From Clostridia bacterium (GTDB lineage: Bacteria > Bacillota > Clostridia > Oscillospirales > Acutalibacteraceae): a DNA stretch of 64,000 nucleotides. Location: assembly GCA_017522225.1 (NCBI GenBank), contig JAFWZR010000019.1:1-64000 (forward strand), given 5' to 3'. Made by a program: the position numbers and the translations under genes. Below are positions 4,101 to 56,664 of the stretch, piece by piece. Within the stretch, counting starts at the first letter, position 1. Every line of letters begins with the position of its first letter. Below the pieces are notes generated by a model. The model was not told where the DNA came from, ran no database searches, and was given only the letters and a program-made list of their open reading frames with translations.

Positions 4101-6100
4101 ACGGCCTTTACGGCAAGATTATTGTTTCAGACAGTGCAGTGTTCAATGCAAACCAGTCCACAAACGGCGGTGCAATCAGTGCTAACTACTACGGTGCTAT
4201 CGAAATCAACGGTGGTACATTCACAGGCAACGTTGCTTATGCTGCGGGCGGTGCTATTTATGTTCCCGAGGCAACAAGTGTAACCATCACAAAGTGCTAT
4301 ATCGCTGAAAATGTTTCAAATCATACACAGGGCGGAGCTATATACAGTGCAGGCACCTTTATTATGAAGGGTGAAGCACAGATTGATTCCACAAACGATG
4401 TATATCTTAAGAAAAACGCTTATATCACAATAACCGAACAGTTGAGCTGTTCAGGATATGCGGCTATCTTAACTCCTGAGGCTTACAGCGAGGGTCAGCA
4501 GGTACTCAACGGTGCGGTAATGGGTACAAGTTTTGCAAAATTCGGCTTGGCAAACACAAACTGGTATATCCTTGCAAACGGTAAGATGACAAGCCTTGCC
4601 ACAACGACGGTAGCAATGGTTAGTAAAAATAACGCATATTCTGTTCCGTTCACGTCACTTTATGATGCTTTTGAATCTGTAGGCGAGGGTGAAGAGGCTA
4701 ACATTACCGTTGTTGCAAACAACTCGGTTACTAAGCCGATCACCGTAAGAGGTGACATTACTCTTACCTGCGATGAAGAGACCTTTGTTACAATGCGCGG
4801 CGGTGCGTTTACGGGAATTATGTTTGACATTCAGTCAGGTGCAAAGCTTCGCTTGGGTGATACTGTTGAAAACGTTAAACAGCAGGCACAGTCTGATTAT
4901 GCTACAGGTACACGCACAACAGGTCAGATGATTCTTGACGGCGGTTACGGCCATACCGAGGTTATCGGTGCAGCGGCAATCAATGTTCAGTCAGGTGCAG
5001 AATTGCATTTTTACGATGATGCTATTATCCAGAACTTTAACAACGCAACTACAAGTGTAATCACCGTATCGGGTACTATGTATATGTACGGCGGTACAAT
5101 CTGCGACAATATCTCAACATACGGCGGTGCGATATATGTCAAGTCTTCAGGACATGTAAGTCTTTCGGGCGGTGTAATTTACGGTAATACTGACAAAAAC
5201 GGCGCTGAAGCAATTTACTCTGAGGGTAAGGTAACACGAAACATCCGTACGTATAATTACTATTACAGTGAGCCTATCTATAAGTTAGATGACGAAGGTA
5301 ATTATGTCCTTAACGGTGCAGGTGATAAGATTATCGAATCATATAAGGATCCTATCCTTTACTCAACAGTCAGCACAGATGTGTTTATCAGGCAGGGTGA
5401 CAAGGTTTACCTTAAAAACAACCTTATGTACTTAGGCGAAGATTCGCAGGACATTCAGCTGATGGGCTTAAGTAATATTCCGACGGAAAATACCATGGTA
5501 ATGAAGCCGATGACACTTGATTTTGAAACTTATACTCTCGGTTCGGTTATTCTTACGGGTACTAAGGTCACAACATATTACACTGCATTTGAAACGGCAG
5601 AGTTCGGTTATTTCATTCAGAGTAACGGAACACTCGGTCTTAACAAGCTTGTTCCTAAGGCAAAATCAGGGCTTGTGATTGACAGAGAAAAGGATCTGAT
5701 TTCAGGTTTTGACCTTGATGATATGACAGTCGGCAATTATATTTCAGATTTTGAAAACAGCTCGTCTTCAATCCGTTTCTACGATAAGAACGGTAAGGTT
5801 TTAAGAAACACTTTTGAAATCACAACAGGCTGCTACATTCAGCTGCGTGACAGTAACTCAAATGTGATCGATACCGTTAAGATTGTGGTTTACGGTGATG
5901 TTAATTGTGACTATATAATTGACGGTCAGGATTCCGTGCTTATCAGCTCAATTGCAGGTGGCTTGCTTACATCGGAAAATGCCGAAAGCGCTGTGCTTGA
6001 GGCGGCAGATGTCAACTTTGACGGTAAGGTTACCTCGATTGATGCAGAGCATACCGATATGAGCGGTCTGTACCTGCAGACAATCGGTCAGAATAAATAA
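1163..6100 (+). CDS. Large secreted GLUG / parallel beta-helix protein with C-terminal dockerin
   Basis: This 1645-residue protein has an N-terminal signal peptide (KRRILSIIVTLMLTMGVVYPAL) and no membrane anchor. Two blocks of GLUG repeats (GGIVGY, GGVVGY and similar, with CY-x2-G) span roughly residues 30-380 and 390-760, each opened by a WFANAVN/WFAALVN and WTPIG-FIGLFG-like module. Two beta-helix blocks with GGAIY units follow (about 880-1120 and 1330-1410). The end (about 1585-1640) is a type I dockerin with two calcium loops, DVNCDYIIDGQD and DVNFDGKVTSID. It should therefore dock onto a cohesin or act as a surface adhesin. I start at GTG 1163, nine bases after AAGGAG; upstream TTG codons abut the ribosome binding site. 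The gene is monocistronic, with its own promoter and terminator. Confidence 0.85.
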   Translation: MKRRILSIIVTLMLTMGVVYPALTVATNAAIWGGTAVIPSLLGDVYQIATAENLAWFANAVNSGNTGINAILTADIQLNETGAADHEWTPIGTIDNPFEGIFDGAGYTVSGLYINSTENYIGLFGVVNDTTDSDTISVTPEFIEQSRTVRVKNLKVTDANVTGNQNVGGIVGYSIGGGIKDCYFSGSVTGTFNSVGGVLGWGSSQTVVARCQTTGTVTGKQRTGGIVGYCSSNTVVSKCYSDASIKGTQNVGGIVGTLAGSNLVGCFFLGEVTADNAVGGIVGYTTVSLIRGVYAIPIITSAGTQKGGAVGKVFGGDYTSIFYCYETAHCDGPLGIARTVEEMQTSGFVRELNKAMVYFSFDYTNINNGYPVLVWMLETDVWTGEMEIPSQNDSGIYLIYTPAELAWFAALVNGTVPGIDANPAASAEVKNDLLFNINVYDDSFGLREWTPIGNLEHPYTGKFIGNGFNIAGIYTTATAGDNGNNVGFFGYVGKGAEIDNFLVIDGLICGVENVGGVAGFVNGGKIVNAVCASEVRGDKAVGGVAGNILGGATVHSCGMIGSINGTNVTDELSFLMNVGGVVGYNNRSTIERSFCYANINAPDARNVGGIVGNNGVGTIKNSYSTSTVVGNTLCGGIVGNNNNGTVQKCYTAGKITAFSQSGIAFGQTSGANVSECYYDSAYLTIANTIAGATAKTTEEMSGTRAISGMGLSTGEWRFLNDDDYFYYYPQINTMAYSASRTIRTTSKESVKRVQSQYVARVEIDGRIDTYYETLSAALDYASTTESSVLPTVYLVRDAELSQTLVVSSQIGIFADNGASLKRAAGFTGTMINVTGNLTLGSSVYGDDDAPGFRFDGNQIEGVASGVTVQKGATLNIESGVEIVGFNTVSLATATVRGAVISTVGGKINVNGGIFNGNVSKTVGGAIYNEDGEVNIKGGIFKNNEATQGSAIYNNDGTVNITGGTFTGNIARDSGGACATYGLYGKIIVSDSAVFNANQSTNGGAISANYYGAIEINGGTFTGNVAYAAGGAIYVPEATSVTITKCYIAENVSNHTQGGAIYSAGTFIMKGEAQIDSTNDVYLKKNAYITITEQLSCSGYAAILTPEAYSEGQQVLNGAVMGTSFAKFGLANTNWYILANGKMTSLATTTVAMVSKNNAYSVPFTSLYDAFESVGEGEEANITVVANNSVTKPITVRGDITLTCDEETFVTMRGGAFTGIMFDIQSGAKLRLGDTVENVKQQAQSDYATGTRTTGQMILDGGYGHTEVIGAAAINVQSGAELHFYDDAIIQNFNNATTSVITVSGTMYMYGGTICDNISTYGGAIYVKSSGHVSLSGGVIYGNTDKNGAEAIYSEGKVTRNIRTYNYYYSEPIYKLDDEGNYVLNGAGDKIIESYKDPILYSTVSTDVFIRQGDKVYLKNNLMYLGEDSQDIQLMGLSNIPTENTMVMKPMTLDFETYTLGSVILTGTKVTTYYTAFETAEFGYFIQSNGTLGLNKLVPKAKSGLVIDREKDLISGFDLDDMTVGNYISDFENSSSSIRFYDKNGKVLRNTFEITTGCYIQLRDSNSNVIDTVKIVVYGDVNCDYIIDGQDSVLISSIAGGLLTSENAESAVLEAADVNFDGKVTSIDAEHTDMSGLYLQTIGQNK

Positions 6101-34820: not shown

Positions 34821-35809
34821 TTTGCCTTAGCCTCCTTTTCTTTTTTAGGAGTACCGAAGGGCTTGGGAAGAGTTATGTTCTCAATAAGCGGAACAAGAAT
34901 GTTCATAATAAGGATTGAGTATGAAACACCCTCGGGAAGGTTACCGAAAATACGGATAAGTGATGTTATAACACCGCAGCCTACTGCGAAGATGATCTTA
35001 CCCTTGAATGTAATCGGTGATGTTGTATAGTCAGTTGCCATAAATACAGCACCGAGAAGAAGACCGCCGCCAAGAAGCTCATAGGCAACAAATTCAAGGT
35101 TGCCCTTGCCTACAAACAGCATAATTGCTGCTACAGTGCCTATGTAAATAAGCGGAATAGTGGGGGAGATAACCTTTCTTGCAACAAGGTAGATACCGCC
35201 GAGGATAATTGCGATTGCGCAAGTTTCACCGAGACATCCTGCACGCCAGCCGATGAGCATCTCAACAAGAGTTGCATCAGGTGTGGTACCCTGAGAAACC
35301 ATTGTGTGAATTGAAGCAAGGGGAGAAGCGGATGTAAGTCCGTCAAGGTTACTCATACTCCATGTAAGCGGAGCGGTCCATGTTGACATTGCAACGGGGA
35401 ACGATGTAAGAAGAACAATTCGTCCTGCAAGTGCAGGGTTAACGAAGTTCTGACCGATACCGCCGAAGAACTGCTTAGCAACGACGATAGCAATAACTGC
35501 ACCGATCATAACCATCCAGAGAGGAACATTAACAGGAAGATTGAATGCAAGAAGAAGACCTGTGATAACTGCGCTCAGGTCACCGATTGTCTGACTGCGC
35601 TTCATAACAACACGGCTGATAAATTCTGCAATAACGCAAGTGCCGACTGAAACACATTCAACAAGCAGCGCACGGGGACCGAAGAAGATTACAGAAGCAA
35701 CAAGTGCGGGTACCATAGCGATGATAACATCAAGCATAATGCTGCGCACTGTTTTGTGTGAACGGTCGTGCGGAGAAGCACTGACCACAAGTTTATTGTT
35801 TAATGTCAT
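34817..35809 (-). CDS. rnfD: Rnf complex subunit D (membrane flavin subunit)
   Basis: RnfD is a polytopic membrane subunit homologous to NqrB, with a covalent FMN. The 330-residue protein has the NqrB/RnfD helices (SPHDRSHKTVRSIMLDVIIAM, NFVNPALAGR, YLVARKVISPTIPLIYIG). The flavinylation sequence reads DGLTSAS (156-162), so serine 162 sits where most relatives have threonine. It overlaps rnfC by four bases. Confidence 0.94.
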   Translation of the reverse strand: MTLNNKLVVSASPHDRSHKTVRSIMLDVIIAMVPALVASVIFFGPRALLVECVSVGTCVIAEFISRVVMKRSQTIGDLSAVITGLLLAFNLPVNVPLWMVMIGAVIAIVVAKQFFGGIGQNFVNPALAGRIVLLTSFPVAMSTWTAPLTWSMSNLDGLTSASPLASIHTMVSQGTTPDATLVEMLIGWRAGCLGETCAIAIILGGIYLVARKVISPTIPLIYIGTVAAIMLFVGKGNLEFVAYELLGGGLLLGAVFMATDYTTSPITFKGKIIFAVGCGVITSLIRIFGNLPEGVSYSILIMNILVPLIENITLPKPFGTPKKEKEAKAK

Positions 35810-37158
35810 TTCTTAGCACCTGCCTCTCTGATGACTGCCTTTGCAAGGCGCATGTGCTGAACGAGCGGTTTCTTTGCGGGGCAGGAGTAAGCACAGCTGC
35901 CGCATTCCATACAAACCATAACGCCGTCCTTGAGCAGAGCGTCAGCATCGCCTGCCTTTGTGTTGCGGACAATTCTTGTGGGCACAAGGCTCATAGGACA
36001 AGCACTTGCACACTTACCGCAACGGATACAGTCTGTTTCCGTAAATACCTTTGCATCATCCTTTGAGAAGGCAAGCAAGGCATTGTTGCTCTTTGAAAGA
36101 GGATGATCAAGGCTGGTGATAGCGGCACCCATCATAGGACCGCCTGTGATAATCTTAACGGGATCTTCTCTGAATCCGCCACAGAAGTCGATGATATCGC
36201 TGATGCTTGTACCGATAGGTACACGGATATTCTTCGGCTCTTTGATTGCCATACCGTCAACAGTAAGTGAACGGCTGACAAGAGGCTTACCCGTCTTAAG
36301 ATAGCGTGAAATAAATGCAACGGATGCAACGTTCATAACCATACAGCCTACATCAGCAGGAAGCTTGCCCGGAGGCACCTGTCTGCCTGTTGCTGACTGT
36401 ACCATCATCTTCTCAGCACCCTGCGGGTAGCGTGATTCAAGCTGCATAATCTTGATTGCGCCGCCTGCACTTGAGTCACCGTCAACAATCTGTTCAAGGA
36501 TTTTGAAAGCCTCAGGCTTGTTGTCTTCAACAGCTATAACAACATTGGGAATTTCAAGGAATTCCATAATTGTTCTGATACCTGAGTAAATATCCCATGA
36601 ATTTTCGATACATTCACGGTAGTCTACGGTAATGTAAGGCTCACACTCTGCCGCATTGATAACGAGCGTGTCGATGTGCTTATCGGGCGGAACATTGAGC
36701 TTGACGTGTGTCGGAAAGCCTGCACCGCCAAGACCCACAAGACCCGAAGCGCGTATTGCCTTGATAAAGTCTTCCTTTGTCTCGACGTGAGGAGCCTCAA
36801 TGCCCTCGTACAACTGCATTTCGCCGTCAGATTCAATGGTAACTCCCTGTGCCATTGCACCGCCGGGGAGCTTGACATTACCGATAGCGGTAACTGTACC
36901 TGAAACCGAAGCGTGAATCGGTGCACTTACGAAAGCCTCGCTGTCACCGATTACCTGGCCGACCTTTACTGTGTCACCGACCTTCACTGTCGGTGTACAG
37001 GGTGCGCCGATGTGTTGCTGCATAGGTAAAATAACCTGTTTGGGTTCCGGCATACGCACTACTTCAAGCTCGGCGGTGTTTTTGTGGTGAGCCACCTTAA
37101 CTCCGCCTCTGACTTTCTTTACTGCTTTAATTACGCCGGGGATGTGAATTTTACCCAT
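35806..37158 (-). CDS. rnfC: Rnf complex subunit C (NADH-binding)
   Basis: RnfC is the peripheral subunit that binds NAD(H) and flavin. The 450-residue protein has an N-terminal biotinyl-lipoyl-like region (VKVGDTVKVGQVIGD), the flavin/NAD loop GLVGLGGAGFPTHVKL (Nuo51-type), the SLBB region, and two 4Fe-4S sets, CIRCGKCASACP and CMECGSCAYSCP. The C-terminus is short compared with proteobacterial RnfC, as is usual in Clostridia. It is the first of the six rnf genes (order C-D-G-E-A-B). Confidence 0.95.
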   Translation of the reverse strand: MGKIHIPGVIKAVKKVRGGVKVAHHKNTAELEVVRMPEPKQVILPMQQHIGAPCTPTVKVGDTVKVGQVIGDSEAFVSAPIHASVSGTVTAIGNVKLPGGAMAQGVTIESDGEMQLYEGIEAPHVETKEDFIKAIRASGLVGLGGAGFPTHVKLNVPPDKHIDTLVINAAECEPYITVDYRECIENSWDIYSGIRTIMEFLEIPNVVIAVEDNKPEAFKILEQIVDGDSSAGGAIKIMQLESRYPQGAEKMMVQSATGRQVPPGKLPADVGCMVMNVASVAFISRYLKTGKPLVSRSLTVDGMAIKEPKNIRVPIGTSISDIIDFCGGFREDPVKIITGGPMMGAAITSLDHPLSKSNNALLAFSKDDAKVFTETDCIRCGKCASACPMSLVPTRIVRNTKAGDADALLKDGVMVCMECGSCAYSCPAKKPLVQHMRLAKAVIREAGAKK

Positions 37159-37188
37159 TTATTCAACCCCTTTCAATAATATACAAAT

Positions 37189-37710
37189 TTATAACCTGTT
37201 AATAATTCTGTTCAGAGCAGGAAGCACCAGCTTAAGAACAGTGCCTGTAACACAGCCTGTTACTATGGCAAATAATAACAACAGCGGTCCGTAGCCGAAA
37301 ACAAGCGACCAGGTGCCTGAAATAAGACACGCACTTACAAGCTGACCGATATTGTGACAAACGGCACAGATAATACCTATACCGATGTATCCTGAATTGA
37401 ATTTTTTGCTGCGCAGAAGAATACACGCAACCGCTGTGCTTAACAGTCCGCCCGAGGCACTCATAAGCATTGCTGTTGAGCCTCGTGTGATTCCTGCAAA
37501 CAGAGCCTTTAATATTGTAATAAAAAACGCATCGGCAACCGAATAAGAGGATGCCATAAACATTGTTACTATATTTGAAAGTCCGGGCTTTGCACCGGGC
37601 GGGAGACCGGGAAGGGCAGGGATGAGCGATTCCAGAAAGGAAAGCGCCAGTGCCAATGCACCCATAATTCCGAGCAGTGCAACCCGTTTTGTGTATTTAT
37701 TGTTTTTCAT
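37189..37710 (-). CDS. Gx transporter family membrane protein (heptaprenyl diphosphate synthase component I-like)
   Basis: 173 residues, about five transmembrane helices. The segment ALALSFLESLIPALPGLPPGAKPGLSNIVTMF is typical of the Gx transporter family, an S-component-like fold often annotated HepT or heptaprenyl diphosphate synthase component I. In many Clostridia it accompanies ApbE and NusG_II genes; its cargo is unknown. I prefer ATG 37710, nine bases after CGGA, to the ATG at 37719. It sits between the NusG_II gene and rnfC and is probably part of the operon. Confidence 0.8.
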   Translation of the reverse strand: MKNNKYTKRVALLGIMGALALALSFLESLIPALPGLPPGAKPGLSNIVTMFMASSYSVADAFFITILKALFAGITRGSTAMLMSASGGLLSTAVACILLRSKKFNSGYIGIGIICAVCHNIGQLVSACLISGTWSLVFGYGPLLLLFAIVTGCVTGTVLKLVLPALNRIINRL

Positions 37711-37726
37711 ATCAAACATTCCGTTT

Positions 37727-38092
37727 TTAATATGTCATCATATCTGTTTTGTCTGTGCCCTTGATTGTTATAACAATTCTTTCGGGCAGGCAGGCGGCCG
37801 TCTGCCCTTTCTTGGAAAGCCAGCCGCTTCCGATACACAGCTCATCCTTGCAGCACGCAGCCGAAAACCGTATCCGATCCTTTTCTACTGTAATTTCAGT
37901 GCCGTCCTTCGGAGAAAAAGTGCGCGGGACTTCGACCTCATTCAGATTGATTTCTTCAATTATTTCACCGTCAGAGTAGACGGTTGCAATCAGATTATTG
38001 TTATTAAAAATGCCGGGAATAAAAAGCAAAAGACTTAAAACCAGAACGGATATTATAATGAAAATATCCGCTTTACCAAAGAGTTTTTTCAT
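37727..38092 (-). CDS. NusG domain II-containing membrane-anchored protein
   Basis: 121 residues: one N-terminal membrane helix (ADIFIIISVLVLSLLLFIPGIF) and an extracytoplasmic NusG_II domain with the family motif RIRFSAACCKDELCIGSGWLSKKGQTAACLPERIVI. Such proteins are regularly encoded next to ApbE and electron-transfer systems. The domain's cysteine pair CCKDELC and a later Cys may bind or exchange thiols. The start codon overlaps the apbE stop (ATGA). Function unproven. Confidence 0.8.
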   Translation of the reverse strand: MKKLFGKADIFIIISVLVLSLLLFIPGIFNNNNLIATVYSDGEIIEEINLNEVEVPRTFSPKDGTEITVEKDRIRFSAACCKDELCIGSGWLSKKGQTAACLPERIVITIKGTDKTDMMTY

Positions 38093-39123
38093 TCTGCCAT
38101 CACAAAACTTTCATCCGTAAGTGTGAATTTCTTTTCTAAACCGTCAGTCACGCGGACTGTTTTATCTTTGAATACAAACACAGCTTCTGCATCGAATTCC
38201 TTAAGCAGCACAAGGCTGTCGTTGTAGCCGAGTATAAAACACGCAGTTGAAAGTGCGTCACTGAGTGTACCTGATCCGCAGACCACCGTTACGCTTGAAA
38301 GATTGCTTTCGGCAGGATAACCTGTCCGGGCATTTAAAATATGATGATAGGTTTTATCGCCTTCAACAAAGAATCTTTCATAATCGCCTGAGGTGGAAAC
38401 ACAGGTGTCGGAGAGCTTAAGTGTACCCATCGACTCTGTGTCATTTTCAGGATTAACTATACCTATATTAAAGCTTCTGTTACCGTAAAGAAGCAGACTT
38501 CCTCCAACGGAAATAACTGCAGAATCCGTACGGGTAGCAGAGAGGTAATTTCTGATTCTGTCGCAAGCCGCGCCCTTACCGACTGCACCGAGATCAAGGC
38601 TCTGGCCGTTAGCGGTTATAACCGTGGTATCGGTAATTTTAACGGAAGAGTGGCTGACGGTTTCAATTGCTTTGGCAATTTCTTCCTCATCGGGAATACG
38701 CTGATTGTCACCGCCGAAGTCCCAGAGCTTTGTAAGGTTGCCGACGGTAATGTCAAATACACCGCCGCATTTTTTTGAAACCTCAAGCGCCGTAGCAATA
38801 AAGTCAACAGTCTCCTTTGAAACGGAAACCGCACTTCCTGATGCAGCGTTTACTCTGTAAATGTCTGAGTTTTCTTTTCTGTGAGAAAGAAGAGCCTCCT
38901 CAGTTTCAGTAAGGTTTTCTTTTAAACCGAGCTCAGTCTGTTCACCGTCAGAGCCGAAAAGACGGAAATTGACAACCGTACCCATTGCTATAGTTGTTGA
39001 GCTGTATTCGGAGCGGCTTTGCACAAGATCGGTGAGCACGATACATATTAACAGTACGGCACAGACAGTAACGGCAATAAGAGCTTTTGTATTCAGTTTA
39101 TTTCCGTTATTTGTGTTTCTCAA
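38089..39123 (-). CDS. apbE: FAD:protein FMN transferase
   Basis: ApbE uses FAD to attach FMN covalently to threonine or serine of target proteins such as RnfG and RnfD, both encoded downstream. About 344 residues: an N-terminal membrane helix (KALIAVTVCAVLLICIVLTDLVQ), then TTIAMGTVVNFRLFG, GGVFDITVGNLTKLWDFGG, DLGAVGKGAACDRI, SVGGSLLLYG and HHILNARTGYPA, the usual ApbE motifs. I favour TTG 39123 after AGGTG; ATG at 39147 would start only about a dozen bases from the transcription start and adds MCRNRCSA. It heads the operon apbE-NusG_II-Gx-rnfCDGEAB. Confidence 0.9.
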   Translation of the reverse strand: MRNTNNGNKLNTKALIAVTVCAVLLICIVLTDLVQSRSEYSSTTIAMGTVVNFRLFGSDGEQTELGLKENLTETEEALLSHRKENSDIYRVNAASGSAVSVSKETVDFIATALEVSKKCGGVFDITVGNLTKLWDFGGDNQRIPDEEEIAKAIETVSHSSVKITDTTVITANGQSLDLGAVGKGAACDRIRNYLSATRTDSAVISVGGSLLLYGNRSFNIGIVNPENDTESMGTLKLSDTCVSTSGDYERFFVEGDKTYHHILNARTGYPAESNLSSVTVVCGSGTLSDALSTACFILGYNDSLVLLKEFDAEAVFVFKDKTVRVTDGLEKKFTLTDESFVMAE

Positions 39124-39165
39124 CGCACTACACCTATTTCTGCACATAATTGTCTATTCTCAATA

Positions 39166-39194
39166 ATTATATACTGAAATCAGCTTTAATTCAA
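39166..39194 (-). promoter_or_regulatory. Promoter of the apbE-rnf operon
   Basis: Minus strand TTGAAT (39194-39189), 17-bp spacer, TATAAT (39171-39166). Confidence 0.7.
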
Positions 39195-39249
39195 TAGCAA
39201 AACCACTAATTAAAAAATTAACAAAGAATGAAAAATCTTTAACAAACAG

Positions 39250-39280
39250 AAAAAAACCTGTTCGAAAACAGGTTTTTTTG
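39250..39280 (-). terminator. Terminator of the cohesin-like/CxxC-repeat protein gene
   Basis: Perfect 11-bp stem AAAAACCTGTT/AACAGGTTTTT with loop CGAA; the minus strand continues with TTTCTG. It lies 20 bases after the stop codon. Confidence 0.8.
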
Positions 39281-39300
39281 AGTTGTATTAAGTTTAAGAA

Positions 39301-41175
39301 TTAAAGATACCAGATCCAACCGAAGAGGACGTAAACGATGATCCACTGGATGATTGAATACTTAACAGTAACAGTACAAGTGTCTGACTTGCCGTTTGCA
39401 GTTTTTGCTGTAATTGTTGCAGTACCAACACCTGTAGCGTGTACCTGACCTTCTTCGTCAACAGTAGCAACGTCGGGATTTGATGATTCCCAATAGATAA
39501 CTGTTGAATAAGCAGCATCTTCGGGAAGAACGTTTGCAAAGAGTCTCAATGTCTGGTCATAGTTCATTGAAACTTCTTCTGTTGTAAGAACAACTTCCTT
39601 AGCGTTAACAACAAGCTTCGGAATTGACTTTTCTTCATCAGCACCGCAATTGTCACAAATTCTTCTCTTGATACCTTCGGCACTTACTGTGGGCTCTTTG
39701 ATTGTTGTCCATGCAAGCCACTTGTGACCTGTTGCAGGAGAAGTTGTGCCGGGCTGAATATCCTGACAGTAACGGCAAACCTTTCTTCTGTAGCCATCCT
39801 CTGTACATGTTGCAGGATGGATATCGTCATAGTAGTTATGTCCTGTTGCTTCAAGAACTTTTTCTGTAATAATATGTCCGCAAGAGCAAACTGTACGTAC
39901 ATAACCATCTTCAAGACACTCTGCATCCTTGATTACTGTATCAACAGCCTTATGGGGGAGAACAGGAATATCCTGCTTTGATACTTCAGCACCGCAATCG
40001 TTACAGATAACCTTATCATAACCTGCTTCTGTACAAGTGGGATCCTTGTGCTCTGTTTTTGTATTCTTGTGGTTTGTTGCGGGAAGAACATCAGTGGAAA
40101 GAACAGTTTTACAATCAGTACAGAAAGTCTTTACATAGCCTGCTTCTGTACAAGTAGGTTCTTTGCGTTCAACATCCTTGTTTTTGTGCTCAGTCACAGG
40201 AATTTCATCTGAAGAAATAACTGCACCGCAGTCTTCACATACTATTCTGTCGTAACCGGGCTCTGCACAAGTAGGATCCTTATGCTCATTCTTTTGGTTG
40301 CGGTGACCTGTTTCTGCTGTTTCTGAATATGAAACAACCACGCCGCAGTCATTACAGGTTTCCTTATGGTAACCTTTTTCTGTACATGTAGGAGGTACGT
40401 CTTCTTTAGTTGTGTTTTTGTGATTTGTTGCAGGGATCTCTACATCAGAAACAACTGCACCGCAATCGTTACAGGTTTCCTTGTCGAAGCCTGCCTCTGT
40501 ACAAGTAGCGTCCTTGTGATCCTTTACGATGTTCTTGTGTTCTGTTTTGTCTACAGGCTCGGTCTCAGCGACTTCACCGCACTCTGTGCAATAGCGTACA
40601 ACTGTGCCTTCAGCACCGCAGGTCGGCTGAACTGTCATAACCCAACTGCCGCCGGGAACATGAATGTGCTCTGCGGGAAGATCCACTGTAATGGTAACTC
40701 CTTCAGTAACATCTGTTTCGTTGTCCTCTTCACCTACATAGCAGGTAGCAACACTGAGGTTGAAATCACCGGAAAGAACGCTGATTTTGTTGAGCTTATC
40801 ATAGGTATATGTAGCAACGGTGAAGGGAGCTGTGCAAGCTTCGAGAGTTGCGATAGCAATCATACCGTTGTCACAGTTGCTTGTTTTTGAAGAGAAAGAA
40901 GAATCAACATCGATTGCCTTCAATACGAGCTCGTCTTTTGTAGTGATCTGAAGCTCAAAACAATTAAAAGAATTTTCCTTAAGATTGAGAGCCATAACTA
41001 CTTCTGTTTCAGTTTCGCTGACCTTCTCAAACACGAAGGAAGGAGCGGGGGCACCCTCAACCGCAACTTCACCCTCAACAACCTCATCTGCAGCAAAAGC
41101 GAAAGCGGGAGCTACAGAGAAGATCATAAGAGCAGAAAGAAGAAGAGAAAGAGAGCTTTTAAATATCTTTTTCAT
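39301..41175 (-). CDS. Secreted cohesin-like / CxxC-repeat / Ig-like protein with C-terminal FGWIWY tail
   Basis: 624 residues. A signal peptide (to about 28) leads into a cohesin-like beta-sandwich (about 45-170; VVMALNLKENSFNCFELQI, NGMIAIATLEACTAPFTVATYTY). Nine tandem units of about 43 residues follow, most reading PTCTEAGY-x2-x-C-x-DCG-x-IPATNHK, i.e. one Cys plus a CxxC pair; the last lacks its first Cys. A bacterial Ig-like (Big_2) domain (about 530-605) precedes the end QWIIVYVLFGWIWYL. That tail is shared with the genes at 45387 and 54604. There is no LPxTG and no charged terminal run. The protein is probably exported to the surface and may bind dockerins and metal or disulfides. Its promoter is divergent from a PBP gene. 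Confidence 0.8.
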   Translation of the reverse strand: MKKIFKSSLSLLLSALMIFSVAPAFAFAADEVVEGEVAVEGAPAPSFVFEKVSETETEVVMALNLKENSFNCFELQITTKDELVLKAIDVDSSFSSKTSNCDNGMIAIATLEACTAPFTVATYTYDKLNKISVLSGDFNLSVATCYVGEEDNETDVTEGVTITVDLPAEHIHVPGGSWVMTVQPTCGAEGTVVRYCTECGEVAETEPVDKTEHKNIVKDHKDATCTEAGFDKETCNDCGAVVSDVEIPATNHKNTTKEDVPPTCTEKGYHKETCNDCGVVVSYSETAETGHRNQKNEHKDPTCAEPGYDRIVCEDCGAVISSDEIPVTEHKNKDVERKEPTCTEAGYVKTFCTDCKTVLSTDVLPATNHKNTKTEHKDPTCTEAGYDKVICNDCGAEVSKQDIPVLPHKAVDTVIKDAECLEDGYVRTVCSCGHIITEKVLEATGHNYYDDIHPATCTEDGYRRKVCRYCQDIQPGTTSPATGHKWLAWTTIKEPTVSAEGIKRRICDNCGADEEKSIPKLVVNAKEVVLTTEEVSMNYDQTLRLFANVLPEDAAYSTVIYWESSNPDVATVDEEGQVHATGVGTATITAKTANGKSDTCTVTVKYSIIQWIIVYVLFGWIWYL

Positions 41176-45386: not shown

Positions 45387-47108
45387 ATGAAACAAAGTAT
45401 TAAAACGATTATTTCAATTGTAATGGTTCTTACGATTGCAATAATCTGCATGCCAATGTCAATGGCATCAGAAGTCTATAGCGGCACTTGCGGAGATAAT
45501 CTCACTTGGACTCTTGACACCGAAACCGGTGAACTTGTTATCAGTGGTGAGGGTGAGATGTATGATTATTCTTCCGAAGAAACACCATGGTTCGAAAATC
45601 GGTTAAAAATAAATAGTATAGTGGTTAATGATGGGGTAAGTCGTTTAGGTGATTGGTCTTTTATGGATTGCGATAGCCTGACTAATGTTGTAATTCCTGA
45701 AAGTGTAATTGAAATTGGATCGGCTGCTTTTTATGATTGTGATAGTCTTACTATAATTGTTATACCTGATAGCGTTGAATCGATAGCTTTTGCAACTTTC
45801 CGGTTTTGTGATCAGTTAGAATCTGTTTCTATTGGTGAGTGTGTTACATATATAGGTAGCAACGCTTTCGAGGAATGTGTTAATCTTGAAAGCGTAAATA
45901 TTCCAGATAGTGTTACAGAAATAGGTATGGCTGCTTTTTATAGCTGCGAGAGCTTGAAAAGTCTAGAGTTCGGTAAAGGCTTATCGTATATATATGCTTG
46001 GGCATTTGAAGGTTGCTCAAGTTTAGTTGAATTATCTTTCTATAGCAAGTTGAATACTATAGGTGAATCCGCGTTTAATGCTTGTAATATAAAAAGCATT
46101 TATTTCTTTGGCACTCAAGAAACATGGAATAATATTTTTATCGACAGAAAAAATGACGCTATTATTAATGCTACAATCCATTTCCTTGGCGAATCAGAAC
46201 ACAAGCATGATCTCGCTCACCGAACAGTTGCATCCACTTGCACGGTTGCAGGTATGGAATATGATATATGCTTGGAGTGCGGTGAGAGCTTCAATATCGT
46301 TACACTTCCGCTTGCGGCTCATAGTTGGAGCAAGTGGATGACCCGAACAGAAGCTACTGGCTCTGCCTATGGTGAAAAATACAGAACTTGTACAGTCTGC
46401 GGAAAGGAAGAAACAGATTCAATCCCTAAGCTCAATGTTATTGAAGATGAGAAAACAGGTATTGAAATCGAATTTGATAACGAGTACAATTCAGATGTCG
46501 AAATAAAAGTTGAAGAAGTATTTGACGGTAGCTCGTTTGAACTTCTTGAAAAGGCTTACGGTGGGGTAAAATCAAAAGTTTTTGATATTTCAACAATCAA
46601 AGACGGAATAAAAGTTCAGCCTGACGGCAAGGTAAAGGTAAGAATACCTCTCCCAAACGGTTTCGGCAAGAATTCAGTATGGGTTAATTATATCGATTCA
46701 GTAAACGGTACGGTTACAAAAATTCCTTCAACAGTTGTTAACGGTTATGTAGAGTTTGAAACAGACCATTTCAGCTATTATGCAGTTGTTGAAGAGCTTA
46801 GCAAAGTCAACTCAGTTTCAATCGACAACATTTCAATGAGCTACAAGGATTCAACAACTATAACGCCGACAATCAATGCTGATGAAGGTGTCGGATATAC
46901 AGTTTCTTATAGCTCGTCAGACACGGGTGTTGCACAGGTTGATGAAAAAGGAAAAGTAACTGCAACAGGCAAGGGTAGTGCTGAAATCACCTGCACGGTT
47001 ACTGATGAATACGGAAATACTGTAACGGATACCTGCAATGTTGAAGTTAAGTACACCTTCTGGCAGTGGATTATTGTTATCGTTCTCTTCGGTTGGATCT
47101 GGTATTGA
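45387..47108 (+). CDS. BspA-like leucine-rich repeat surface protein with CxxC units, Ig-like domain and FGWIWY tail
   Basis: 573 residues. A signal peptide (about 1-27) leads to a BspA-type start GTCGDNLTWTLDTETGELVISGEGEMYDY, about seven LRRs (SAAFYDCDSLTIIVIPDSVESI and so on, to about 260) ending FFGTQETWNNI. Two CxxC units follow (CTVAGMEYDICLECG; RTCTVCGKEE), a beta-rich region (about 345-470), a Big_2 domain (about 478-555; SSDTGVAQVDEKGKVTATGKGSAEITC) and the tail FWQWIIVIVLFGWIWY at the very end. BspA-type LRRs bind host or polysaccharide ligands. Start ATG 45387 follows AAAGG. The gene is more A+T-rich than its neighbours. It is divergent from an XRE gene. Confidence 0.85.
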   Translation: MKQSIKTIISIVMVLTIAIICMPMSMASEVYSGTCGDNLTWTLDTETGELVISGEGEMYDYSSEETPWFENRLKINSIVVNDGVSRLGDWSFMDCDSLTNVVIPESVIEIGSAAFYDCDSLTIIVIPDSVESIAFATFRFCDQLESVSIGECVTYIGSNAFEECVNLESVNIPDSVTEIGMAAFYSCESLKSLEFGKGLSYIYAWAFEGCSSLVELSFYSKLNTIGESAFNACNIKSIYFFGTQETWNNIFIDRKNDAIINATIHFLGESEHKHDLAHRTVASTCTVAGMEYDICLECGESFNIVTLPLAAHSWSKWMTRTEATGSAYGEKYRTCTVCGKEETDSIPKLNVIEDEKTGIEIEFDNEYNSDVEIKVEEVFDGSSFELLEKAYGGVKSKVFDISTIKDGIKVQPDGKVKVRIPLPNGFGKNSVWVNYIDSVNGTVTKIPSTVVNGYVEFETDHFSYYAVVEELSKVNSVSIDNISMSYKDSTTITPTINADEGVGYTVSYSSSDTGVAQVDEKGKVTATGKGSAEITCTVTDEYGNTVTDTCNVEVKYTFWQWIIVIVLFGWIWY

Positions 47109-47567: not shown

Positions 47568-48740
47568 ATGAAAGCTACGAAAAAACTGTGTGCAATAATT
47601 CTATCGGCAGTTATGTTGCTGATGATCGTTCCTCTTTCAAGTTTAGCAACAGACGGTCTGAAATATGGTGTTTTCTCTTACGAAATTATCGACGGAGGGG
47701 TTGTTATCACGGATTGTGATGACACCGCAAGCGGAAAAATTGAGATTCCAAAAGAAATAGATTCTTGTCAGGTTACTGCAGTAGCACAGGATGCTTTCAG
47801 TATGTGTATGTCAATTACTGAAATTGTTATCCCAGAAAGTGTGCAGACAATCGGAGCGAGTGCATTTTATTACTGTCGTACGCTTGAAACAATAAATCTT
47901 CCGGACGGTTTGACAGAGATTCCGTTTTATGCGTTTCATCATTGCCAGGCACTTAAATCAATAGATATTCCTGACAGTGTTACTAAGATAGGTGACAGAG
48001 CATTTCAGAGCTGTTACAGTTTGACTGAAGTCAGGATGAGCGAAAACATAACTTCAATTGGTAAAAGTGCATTTGATGAATGTGTTTTAATTGAAGAAAT
48101 CAGTCTCGGTGATAAATTGACCTTTATTGGTTTCGGTGCTTTTAATTCGTGCAGAAATCTCAAATCAATCAGCATCCCGAAAGGACCGGAACGTCTTGAC
48201 GCTGCTTTTTCTTCATGCAGTTCTTTAACAAATATTACTGTTCCGTCAAATATTAAAATTGTAGGCCGTCATTCTTTTTACGGCTGCAGAGTGCTTGAAG
48301 CAATAGTATTTGAAGAGGGTGTAACTGAAATATGTGATTTAGCTTTAGCACAGTGCAACGAATTAAAAAGTGTTACATTACCGTCAACTCTTAAAAGTAT
48401 CGGTTATTCTGCCTTTGCATTGGACAATCAGCTTACAGATGTTTACTTTAATGGTACTCAGGAACAGTGGAATGCAATTACGATAGGTGTTGACAACGAA
48501 CCTTTACTTAATGCAACAATTCATTTTGTAACAGCACCGACACACGAACGCGGTGATATAAATGGTGACAATGAGGTTAACTCCACCGATGCACTTATGG
48601 TTTTGCATCATACGGTTGAAAAAACACTTTTGACAGGTGAGGCAGCAATACAGGCTGATGTTACTAAGGATAATGAGATCAATTCTGTTGATGCTTTGAT
48701 GATTCTTAGATATTCGGTAGGTAAAATTGATAAAATCTGA
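47568..48740 (+). CDS. BspA-like leucine-rich repeat protein with C-terminal dockerin
   Basis: 390 residues. Signal peptide (1 to about 27), about ten BspA-type LRRs (ITEIVIPESVQTIGASAFYYCRTLETINLPDG and similar) closing with FNGTQEQWNAITIG, then a type I dockerin (about 327-388) with loops GDINGDNEVNSTDAL and ADVTKDNEINSVDAL. It lacks the FGWIWY tail of the other LRR proteins, so it is probably retained on the surface by docking to a cohesin. Start follows AAAGGTG. Controlled by the adjacent XRE operator. Confidence 0.88.
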   Translation: MKATKKLCAIILSAVMLLMIVPLSSLATDGLKYGVFSYEIIDGGVVITDCDDTASGKIEIPKEIDSCQVTAVAQDAFSMCMSITEIVIPESVQTIGASAFYYCRTLETINLPDGLTEIPFYAFHHCQALKSIDIPDSVTKIGDRAFQSCYSLTEVRMSENITSIGKSAFDECVLIEEISLGDKLTFIGFGAFNSCRNLKSISIPKGPERLDAAFSSCSSLTNITVPSNIKIVGRHSFYGCRVLEAIVFEEGVTEICDLALAQCNELKSVTLPSTLKSIGYSAFALDNQLTDVYFNGTQEQWNAITIGVDNEPLLNATIHFVTAPTHERGDINGDNEVNSTDALMVLHHTVEKTLLTGEAAIQADVTKDNEINSVDALMILRYSVGKIDKI

Positions 48741-54603: not shown

Positions 54604-56664
54604 ATGTACAAAATGCTCAAAAAAATTCTTGCGGCCTTTATGGTAACGGTGATGCTGTTTACGGCGATACCTGCTGTCGGTATTACGGCGTCGGCTGCAG
54701 GGGAAGCGGAAATTCATCTTAATCTGATTGAAGAAACAAACTCCGAAGTGGTTATTGCGGTTATTCTGTCTCCTGACGGTATAAGTGTAGGTGCCATCGA
54801 ATTTACGGTCAGGGCAAAAACAGAAAAAATCGGTGGCTGCACAAAAATCGAAATCAACAAGGGCCTTTTTGATATGTCCGTTCAGAATATCGAAAACGGT
54901 ATGGTTGCGGCAAACTCCGATAACGGAATAAACAATATATGCATCGTTGCAACTTATACCTTCCGAAAGCTTTCCGCGGATAAAATCAACTGTAAAGATT
55001 TTGAATTAATACCGGAAAACTGCGCAACATCAGATGCGGTAACCGTCGGCTGCAGTGCTAAAAACAATCTTCCCGGCGCACCTGAGCCTGAGCTTGAAAT
55101 CTATATAATTTCATATGATGCAAACGGCGGCAGCAAGGCTCCTGAACAGCATAAAAAAATAGAAACAGCCGATGTTTATCTTTCCGAATCTATACCGACG
55201 AGAGACGGATTTGAGTTTATAGGCTGGAATACCAAGGCTGACGGAAGCGGTGATAAATATTCATCGGGCGCATTATATACTTTGGATCAGAGCATAACTT
55301 TATATGCACTCTGGCAGGATTCGGGAAATGTGGAAATTCCTGAATCGGCAGTTGACGGCGGACGATGCGGTGACGGCTTATACTGGGCATTGTATGACAA
55401 TACCGAGCTTGTGATTTTCGGCTCGGGTAAAATGGATAATTATTCCTCAAAGCATCCCGCACCGTGGAAAAAGTACAAGGATACAATCAGTAAGATAACA
55501 ATAAAGGATACGGTAGGCAGTATCGGAAAATCGGCATTTGAGGATTGCTCGCAGGCAACTGAGCTGTTTATTCCTGCTTCGATAGGAATGTATAACAGTC
55601 CGTATGTTTTTGCAAACTGCACAGGTCTTGAAAAAATCACCATAACCAAAGGTAACGGTACGATGCGTGATTTCGGTACGGATGCAGATGCTGACGCAGA
55701 TAAGGTCTATTACAAATGCACGCCGTGGTATGTCAGCAAATGCCCGACAGTGGTAATTGAAGACGGCGTAGACAACATCGGTGAGTACGCATTTGCTTAT
55801 TGCTCAACACTTTCAGATATCTCAATTCCCGACAGTGTAAAAGCGATTGATAACTATGCTTTTTATAACTGCTCGGGTCCGCAGGATATTGCACTTCCCG
55901 ATTCGGTAAAGTCAATCGGAAGCTACGCGTTTTATAAATGCGGTAATTTAAAAACCTTCTCCTTATCGGTGAATGTTATTGATATCGGAAAAGCAGCATT
56001 CAGATACAGTACGGCACTCGAAAAGGTGTATTTCAACGGAACTGAGTATGAGTGGAATCAGCTCGGATACAAAGACTGGTCAGAGCCTGCACCGGAAATA
56101 ATCTTCCTTGTTGTGCACGGTGATGACGACCACGAATTCAGACTGACAGATGAAAAGAAGGAAACCTGCACAACTGACGGATACAAAAATTACTTTTGCC
56201 GTTGCGGTCAGACACATACAGACGTGTTCAAAGCAACGGGGCACACCTTTGGTGATTGGGTTATAATAAAAGAACCCACCTGCACAAAGGACGGCTCCAA
56301 AGTTCGTATATGTTCTGTGTGTAAAGCAAAGGAGACTGAAATAATTCCCGCATTGGGTATGGTTAAATCTGTAGCCGTAAATGATATTTCTTTGAAATAC
56401 AAGGAATCAGGAAAGCTTGAAGCAAAAGTCAATGCGGATAAGGGTGTTGATTACACGGTTGAGTATTCTTCATCAGATCCGACCGTTGCTCAGGTGGACG
56501 AAAACGGAAATATCTATGCGTCAGGCAAGGGCAGTGCTGCAATCACCTGCACCGTAACCGATGAGTACGGAAATGTTGTTGAAGATGTAAGCAACATTGA
56601 AGTGAATTACAGCTTCGGTCAATGGCTGCTGGTTATATTTCTTTTCGGCTGGATCTGGTACTGA
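54604..56664 (+). CDS. Cohesin-like / InlB-repeat / BspA-LRR surface protein with CxxC units, Ig-like domain and FGWIWY tail
   Basis: 686 residues. After the signal peptide (about 1-32) comes a cohesin-like domain (about 35-160; VVIAVILSPDGISVGAIEFTVRA, NGMVAANSDNGINNICIVATYTF), close in pattern to that of the protein at 39301. An InlB/Listeria-Bacteroides repeat (about 175-250; ISYDANGG, GWNTKADGSGDKY, LYALW), a BspA start (GGRCGDGLYWALYDNTELVIFGSG), LRRs (to about 485), two CxxC units, a Big_2 domain and the tail QWLLVIFLFGWIWY follow. ATG 54604 lies after GAAGGAGG. It combines all modules seen separately in the other surface proteins. Confidence 0.85.
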   Translation: MYKMLKKILAAFMVTVMLFTAIPAVGITASAAGEAEIHLNLIEETNSEVVIAVILSPDGISVGAIEFTVRAKTEKIGGCTKIEINKGLFDMSVQNIENGMVAANSDNGINNICIVATYTFRKLSADKINCKDFELIPENCATSDAVTVGCSAKNNLPGAPEPELEIYIISYDANGGSKAPEQHKKIETADVYLSESIPTRDGFEFIGWNTKADGSGDKYSSGALYTLDQSITLYALWQDSGNVEIPESAVDGGRCGDGLYWALYDNTELVIFGSGKMDNYSSKHPAPWKKYKDTISKITIKDTVGSIGKSAFEDCSQATELFIPASIGMYNSPYVFANCTGLEKITITKGNGTMRDFGTDADADADKVYYKCTPWYVSKCPTVVIEDGVDNIGEYAFAYCSTLSDISIPDSVKAIDNYAFYNCSGPQDIALPDSVKSIGSYAFYKCGNLKTFSLSVNVIDIGKAAFRYSTALEKVYFNGTEYEWNQLGYKDWSEPAPEIIFLVVHGDDDHEFRLTDEKKETCTTDGYKNYFCRCGQTHTDVFKATGHTFGDWVIIKEPTCTKDGSKVRICSVCKAKETEIIPALGMVKSVAVNDISLKYKESGKLEAKVNADKGVDYTVEYSSSDPTVAQVDENGNIYASGKGSAAITCTVTDEYGNVVEDVSNIEVNYSFGQWLLVIFLFGWIWY

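Follow-up and report, generated by a model that had tools for sequence, protein, structure and literature searches.

Surface proteins of the uncultured Clostridia of the rumen, the hindgut and the termite gut are mostly known from sequence, and for most of them we know of no described means of retention on the cell. The stretch of DNA analyzed here, 64,000 nucleotides from a Clostridia bacterium (contig JAFWZR010000019.1; hereafter the window), raises this question in a concrete form: three predicted secreted proteins end in a common aromatic tail, and we asked what such an end may do. As a preliminary description of this DNA had claimed, the three ORFs end in the tails QWIIVYVLFGWIWYL, QWIIVIVLFGWIWY and QWLLVIFLFGWIWY, which adjoin the stop; by inspection each ORF has a signal-peptide-like start. 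The features are given below; the two plus-strand ORFs have alternative 5' limits (45327/45387-47108 and 54571/54604-56664).

39301..41175, minus strand: secreted protein with signal peptide, repeated CxxC units, Big_2 and the tail QWIIVYVLFGWIWYL (ORF; Pfam Big_2 E 7e-11)
39307..39354, minus strand: C-terminal tail helix, 16 residues, with one extra Leu before the stop (HMM, DNA pattern, open frame)
39370..39600, minus strand: Big_2 Ig-like domain abutting the tail (Pfam)
45387..47108, plus strand: secreted protein with signal peptide, LRR_5 repeats, CxxC unit, Big_2 and the tail QWIIVIVLFGWIWY (ORF, Pfam)
46833..47009, plus strand: Big_2 Ig-like domain abutting the tail (Pfam)
47058..47105, plus strand: C-terminal tail helix, 16 residues, 15 of them helical in AlphaFold2 (HMM, DNA pattern, AlphaFold2)
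54604..56664, plus strand: secreted protein with signal peptide, List_Bact_rpt, LRR_5, CxxC unit, Big_2 and the tail QWLLVIFLFGWIWY (ORF, Pfam)
56368..56562, plus strand: Big_2 Ig-like domain abutting the tail (Pfam)
56614..56661, plus strand: C-terminal tail helix, 16 residues (HMM, DNA pattern)

Pfam matches placed Big_2 before the tail in all three proteins and an LRR front half in two of them (LRR_5 in those at 45387 and 54604; List_Bact_rpt in one), in line with the preliminary description. Its cohesin-like front halves were not borne out: Pfam Cohesin was absent among the families matched by the window proteins at E<=1, and a genome search gave no Cohesin match to the window genes at E<=0.01. 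Directly 3' of one tail protein lies an LRR_5 protein with a C-terminal dockerin (47568-48740, plus strand). Across the host genome (1.58 Mb, 69% complete), a DNA pattern for F-G-W-x-W-Y (x = NTN) occurred at nine places, all of them ends of open frames, and the reversed control pattern at none. An HMM built from the three window tails recovered the same nine copies (E 1.1e-6 to 3.4e-16), a number far beyond chance.

To describe the tail, we numbered its positions backwards from the last core residue (-1). A degenerate DNA pattern matched at least 117 loci; in the 80 examined, 79 of 81 matches ended 0-1 residues before a stop, the 79 including one chance frame (L089). Eight residues follow the tail in L066 (match 4107-4145, minus strand) and five follow the chance match L099. 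Matches fetched by HMM ended 0-2 residues before the stop in 51 of 51 readable cases. We collected 154 non-redundant tails with a relaxed pattern whose filter restricts -14, -6, -5, -3 and -1. Their residue counts, which are partly made by these selection filters, were Q-14 152, W-13 148, I/L-12 140, I-11 138 and I-9 129 in the first half, and L-7 145, F-6 151, G-5 154, W-4 147, I/L-3 148, W-2 153 and Y-1 149 in the second. The DNA search pattern fixed W-13, F-6, G-5, W-4 and W-2 and left -14 free, and Q-14 was present in 132 of 134 tails mostly fetched with it. In the 51 HMM-fetched matches, to which no motif filter was applied (52 distinct rows minus the wrong stretch L325; three further loci were set aside), Q-14, G-5 and W-2 each occurred 51 times by eye, F-6 50, W-4 48, and W-13 and Y-1 46 times each, with HMMs that were built from tails having Q-14, G-5 and W-2 and may miss divergent ones.

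Variants such as LLGIFWY, LLGMLWY, LFGFIWY and LFGWAWL were seen, and the loosest position is -10, with V, I, K or R. Within the 154 tails, basic residues stand only at -10 (34) and -15 (3), and E occupies -14 in two. That no basic residue follows the hydrophobic run, as first described, holds for all three window tails and for 148 of the 154 collected; a single K/R comes after the helix in the other six. Upstream, V-22, V-20 and Y-18 form the end of the Ig domain (V-x-V-x-Y).

We analyzed the distribution of the tail in samples of the family, order and phylum of the host, each a sample of a larger group. The family-wide search, made with a 40-row model (A5), found the tail in 37 of 398 genomes, which belong to 10 of 135 genera and have between 1 and 20 matches apiece. 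Among 60 relatives, host included, it was present in all 18 genomes of the host's genus plus one other. A narrower model gave 2 of 394 genomes in the order-wide sample (the host plus a single member of its family), and the phylum-wide sample gave 1 of 398, the host itself. In a collection of 84,980 species, a degenerate DNA pattern matched at least 117 stretches. Among the matches listed, nearly all were MAGs named Clostridia, Clostridiales, Oscillospiraceae, Ruminococcaceae or Bacillota; the titles of many of these records mention the rumen or the gut of goat, deer, sheep, cattle or horse, and some isolate names resemble what we take to be termite-gut bins. The matches in Akkermansia (L089) and Bacteroidia (L099) are probably due to chance (frames of 34 and 40 residues), and L074, labelled Dehalococcoidia and carrying a full tail, may be misbinned. 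The tail pattern gave 0 matches in a viral collection. Similar tails in other Oscillospirales, which the preliminary description had mentioned, are present in other genomes of the order. At one locus (L309; G727 C88 37605-37821), a pair of convergent tail genes, one on each strand, has its tails <80 bases apart.

Signal-peptide-like starts were found in 70 of 83 5'-complete tail ORFs vs 106 of 297 non-tail ORFs of >=250 residues, by a heuristic rule that makes no cleavage-site demand and counts any N-terminal membrane segment; such starts are thus enriched among tail ORFs, as the proposed role of the tail on exported proteins asks. The 13 tail ORFs with no such start include fragments and chance frames. 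We took 69 tail proteins as full-length (the 70 that begin in this way, minus one short protein) and searched them against Pfam (E<=0.001), which gave Big_2 in 47, LRR_5 in 17, Big_3 in 11, subtilase S8 in 4, ricin-type lectin in 2, and Cohesin, CHAP and GH123 in one each. Big_3 precedes the tail in L146 and L131. For the tail proteins of L123 and L067, Pfam gave no match at all (E<=0.01), indicating that the tail is not tied to Big_2. A dockerin, LPXTG anchor, SLH or other known anchor domain was found in none of the 69 (21 families, E<=1e-5), and no NCBIfam sorting-signal model was among the 25 families matched by tail proteins. On clustering of ectodomains, 54 of 64 merged into one component via repeats. 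The tail is not confined to one paralogous family; its passengers are diverse, and the shared end is, as had been proposed, a module of exported proteins whose front parts are unlike (LRR, subtilase, lectin, CHAP, GH123).

Twelve genomes of the host's genus that were searched have 15-31 dockerin and 1-5 Pfam Cohesin matches each. Of 30 dockerin loci, 27 gave an ORF in the correct frame, and none of these ORFs ends in the tail (two loci were left out and one was in the wrong frame); in the proteins read the tail-bearing set has no overlap with the dockerin-bearing set. At the Cohesin loci of tail-positive genomes, the tail stood at none of 24 C-termini in the right frame (30 loci, of which five run off the locus and one is in the wrong frame). 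In one relative, a 361-aa frame that ends in the tail (G017 C22) matches Cohesin at sub-threshold level (E 1.2e-4). The idea of the tail as a cohesin anchor for dockerin proteins is weak, with Pfam Cohesin in 1 of the 69 tail proteins.

We next consider the predicted structure of the tail. AlphaFold2 was given the Big_2 domain and tail of the 45387-47108 protein with 51 sequences. The resulting model (mean pLDDT 88.9) has Ig strands to residue 87 and a helix at residues 90-104 of 105, that is, a tail helix of 15 residues joined to the Ig domain by two; local pLDDT in the tail is about 70, in a method that has no membrane. Wimley-White partition sums averaged -11.6 kcal/mol at the interface (-16.0 to -7.9) and -16.4 in octanol for the last 16 residues (n=134), and +4.4 at the interface for the 16 residues from -40 to -25. 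The tail is weakly amphipathic (moment mu 0.18-0.31 vs 0.42-0.56 in the amphipathic ends of three relatives). With 16 residues, it is short for a bilayer span. It departs from a stop-transfer segment in this length (16 residues vs a span of ~20) and in its charges (37 K/R inside the tail vs 6 tails with one after it); lying mostly on the Ig-domain side, these charges do not fit a stop-transfer anchor whose end is in the cytosol. By prediction, tail proteins combine a signal peptide with a terminal membrane-active helix, the two marks of a PBP5-like protein.

To place the tail among its relatives, we classed by eye the C-termini in 40 stretches around Big_2 matches outside tail ORFs. In the host's genus and genus g19, all six proteins in which Big_2 comes last continue into a hydrophobic or amphipathic end (L274, L278, L286, L288, L300, L308), which in L308 consists of WWQ followed by a hydrophobic span of ordinary length. 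In other genera, one of seven has such an end (L290, TM plus basic residues) and six lack it (L291, L292, L299, L302, L305, L307), as do L289 and L304, whose last domain is not assigned. The remaining stretches have different ends or show none. In a joint alignment, the column of Q-14 holds Q in L274, L278, L288 and L308, and N in L286 and L248 (the L300 protein). The L288 protein likewise models as an Ig domain, with two linker residues before a helix of 23 residues (local pLDDT 82-91). From these small numbers, the tail looks like one specialised member of an exchangeable set of C-terminal membrane helices. Ordinary TM plus basic anchors occur in the same lineages (L174/L188, L182, L201, L204), which suggests that the tail must do something those do not. 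Two other ends recur: in Big_2-containing proteins, an amphipathic Phe/Ile-rich helix before the stop (e.g. IFTNIFEFIKKILSLIFSFII; L269, L271, L283, L284, L285, L287), and a hydrophobic, hairpin-like end that has no basic residues (e.g. GIVGSLLLLPVAPFILPFVGAYAVLVLL; L272, L277, L280, L301).

On balance, we lean towards reading the tail as a general-purpose, uncleaved C-terminal membrane anchor inserted from outside. Tail proteins would be exported by Sec, and their last 14-16 residues would form a short helix, very hydrophobic and flanked on either side by Trp/Tyr. This helix, we infer, would enter the cytoplasmic membrane from outside, obliquely or as a short span; it would presumably stay uncleaved and hold an adhesin, protease or lectin on the outer face of the membrane. 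The tail would then be a lineage-specific version of the C-terminal membrane helices found directly behind Big_2/Big_3 in the host's family. We prefer an anchor over a processing signal mainly because relatives carry other membrane-type helices at this place. The preliminary description had offered two possibilities, insertion in the membrane from outside or recognition by a dedicated sortase-like enzyme. The first is the better supported; for the second, nothing speaks positively except the conservation itself. Most hydrophobic residues should be acceptable in a plain anchor, but Q-14, G-5 and W-2 hardly vary; contact between helices, or a partner that is a lipid or a protein, would explain why they are fixed.

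Such conservation at the level of residues, beyond hydrophobicity, would also suit a docking signal, by which one dedicated integral membrane protein, or tail-tail pairing, gathers uncleaved tail proteins; we regard this as unlikely. The often many copies per genome are consistent with it, and so is the charge at -10, which goes by genome as if the tails of one genome follow one partner (84 same-class pairs vs a shuffle mean of 62.6, with 20 of 5000 shuffles reaching 84; 82 of 134 tails, from 39 genomes assigned neither to the host's genus nor to its set), but duplication within a genome would explain this clustering too. Moreover, no partner gene recurs widely near tail genes: when 809 ORFs around 149 tail loci were clustered, the clusters covered at most 12 loci. 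Three candidates, ApbE-like (12), NusG-like (9) and RnfC-like (5), trace one syntenic orthologue group, and a 1029-aa protein (8 loci), a penicillin-binding-like protein (7) and transporters (6) look like further syntenic groups (names by eye). Orthologues of the 39301-41175 protein stay beside the ApbE-like, NusG-like and RnfC-like genes elsewhere (window 35806-41175; names by eye), the ApbE-like neighbour at 12 loci. Twelve stretches from genomes with one to three tails held no common gene by eye; seeking partners in few-copy genomes is the strategy of PMC3237569.

Other neighbours were seen beside some tail genes. In genus g19, three tail genes each adjoin a gene for an extended ECF sigma factor of 472-572 aa (L346 8556-16648; L348 5003-10050). 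The extension consists of a Thr-rich linker followed by a small domain at the C-terminus, and a membrane segment was called in two of the three. In L163, a plain 192-aa ECF-like protein lies downstream of a tail gene. These loci were chosen for their tail, and no enrichment test applies to them.

Cleavage would turn the tail into a sorting signal: an undescribed sortase-, exosortase- or rhombosortase-like enzyme would remove the helix and fix the protein to wall or lipid. We consider this quite unlikely, although a short common C-terminus on unlike, signal-peptide-like proteins, in 1-20 copies per genome and lineage-restricted in our samples, is what such a signal would look like. Before the helix, the aligned tails have no LPXTG-like motif, just the Ig strand V-x-V-x-Y, followed by a linker of about two residues, and 148 of 154 tails lack a basic residue after it. 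Neither a PEP motif with TM segment and basic cluster nor a Gly-Gly motif before a TM segment with basic end was found in the aligned tails. Sortase PF04203 was present in 78 of 79 genomes and in all but one of the 24 without the tail (the 55 tail-positive entries include two repeats of genomes already counted), and thus sortase and tail are not present and absent together. Exosortase PF09721 was over the cut-off in 0 of 49 genomes, 36 of them tail-positive, with a positive control in Methanocaldococcus jannaschii; two sub-threshold matches came from G673 (tail-positive) and G032 (tail-negative). XrtG TIGR03110 gave 0 of 58 genomes, a result that is uninformative with its control silent. A PDB sequence search with the tail profile returned a single, meaningless match (E 1.4). 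In the host and three other genomes, two sortase genes lie behind iscS-thiI-cinA-like genes (L172, L173, L174, L175; names by eye); as a partner of the tail, these paired sortases were rejected, not being tail-specific. The aromatic last residue also brings to mind the outer-membrane beta-barrel signal; we take the host lineage to be monoderm.

Very improbable is the suggestion that the tail has no function of its own and merely results from Big_2-tail ends having been duplicated and converted in recent times: Big_2, present in 47 of 69 tail proteins, could let such ends spread as a block, but tails also stand behind Big_3 and behind proteins with no Pfam match. Two comparisons also speak against the suggestion, and the synonymous differences in the second contradict it. 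Over 1500 random pairs, mean identity was 0.73 in the tail, a value partly fixed by the search pattern, and 0.32 in the preceding 56 residues. In the 480 pairs with <25% identity upstream, the tail was still at 0.73, which indicates a module under selection. In 14 genes encoding one identical 16-residue peptide, 4.7 of 48 bases differ on average (1-8), all synonymously; the tail peptide is kept while codons drift. The tail is a real, selected, lineage-restricted C-terminal module.

A wider idea, which we hold only tentatively, is that the helix might serve these gut Clostridia as the address in a pathway of surface display that is many-to-one and so far undescribed. A dedicated membrane protein might read Q-14, G-5 and W-2 in the plane of the membrane and dock or process the passengers, and the pathway could parallel sortase and dockerin-cohesin display. 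If a partner does read the tail, this would add a new route to those by which Gram-positive bacteria sort proteins. Such a dedicated route is possible; most likely, the tail is a new sequence class of membrane anchor. In either case, the 14-residue signature marks a probably cell-bound set of LRR adhesins, subtilases and lectins, and the tail is a candidate for a compact natural membrane anchor.

The tail helix seems to be undescribed, whereas membrane-anchoring tails as such are well known. We found no paper with the tail strings in the openly licensed PMC literature, preprints excluded, and no description of the tail among the openly licensed PMC matches listed for Trp-rich anchors, new sorting signals and Oscillospirales sorting, as judged from titles and abstract starts.

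Compared with known systems, the tail shares with LPXTG sortase signals its C-terminal place on signal-peptide surface proteins and its many-to-one character, but it has no LPXTG-like motif or basic end and hardly any linker, and sortases do not track with it. A many-to-one relation is described for LPXTG, PEP-CTERM and GlyGly-CTERM in PMC3237569. Like PEP-CTERM and GlyGly-CTERM (PMC3237569), the tail is a lineage-restricted suffix on exported proteins that are otherwise unrelated, and it differs from these two in lacking their architecture of motif, TM segment and basic cluster. The short SrtB signal of AbpA, LPKTS-AVK, has no classical hydrophobic, charged tail according to PMC4974636. Both ends depart from the classical hydrophobic and charged design, in reverse ways: in AbpA a sortase motif stands without a hydrophobic helix, in the tail a helix without a sortase motif. 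The synthetic Trp-flanked model peptide WALP16, GWWLALALALALAWWA (PMC2904924), resembles the tail in its 16 residues, its hydrophobic core and its Trp at both ends. Unlike WALP, the tail is natural and has a beta-branched core, conserved Gln and Gly and often Lys/Arg at -10. PBP5/PBP6-type carboxypeptidases have a C-terminal amphipathic anchor with oblique insertion, as outlined in PMC2909392. They too are exported proteins with a C-terminal helix, a likeness of mechanism, homology apart. In contrast to their anchor, the tail is shorter, far more aromatic and weakly amphipathic, and it is conserved residue by residue and common to many unlike proteins.
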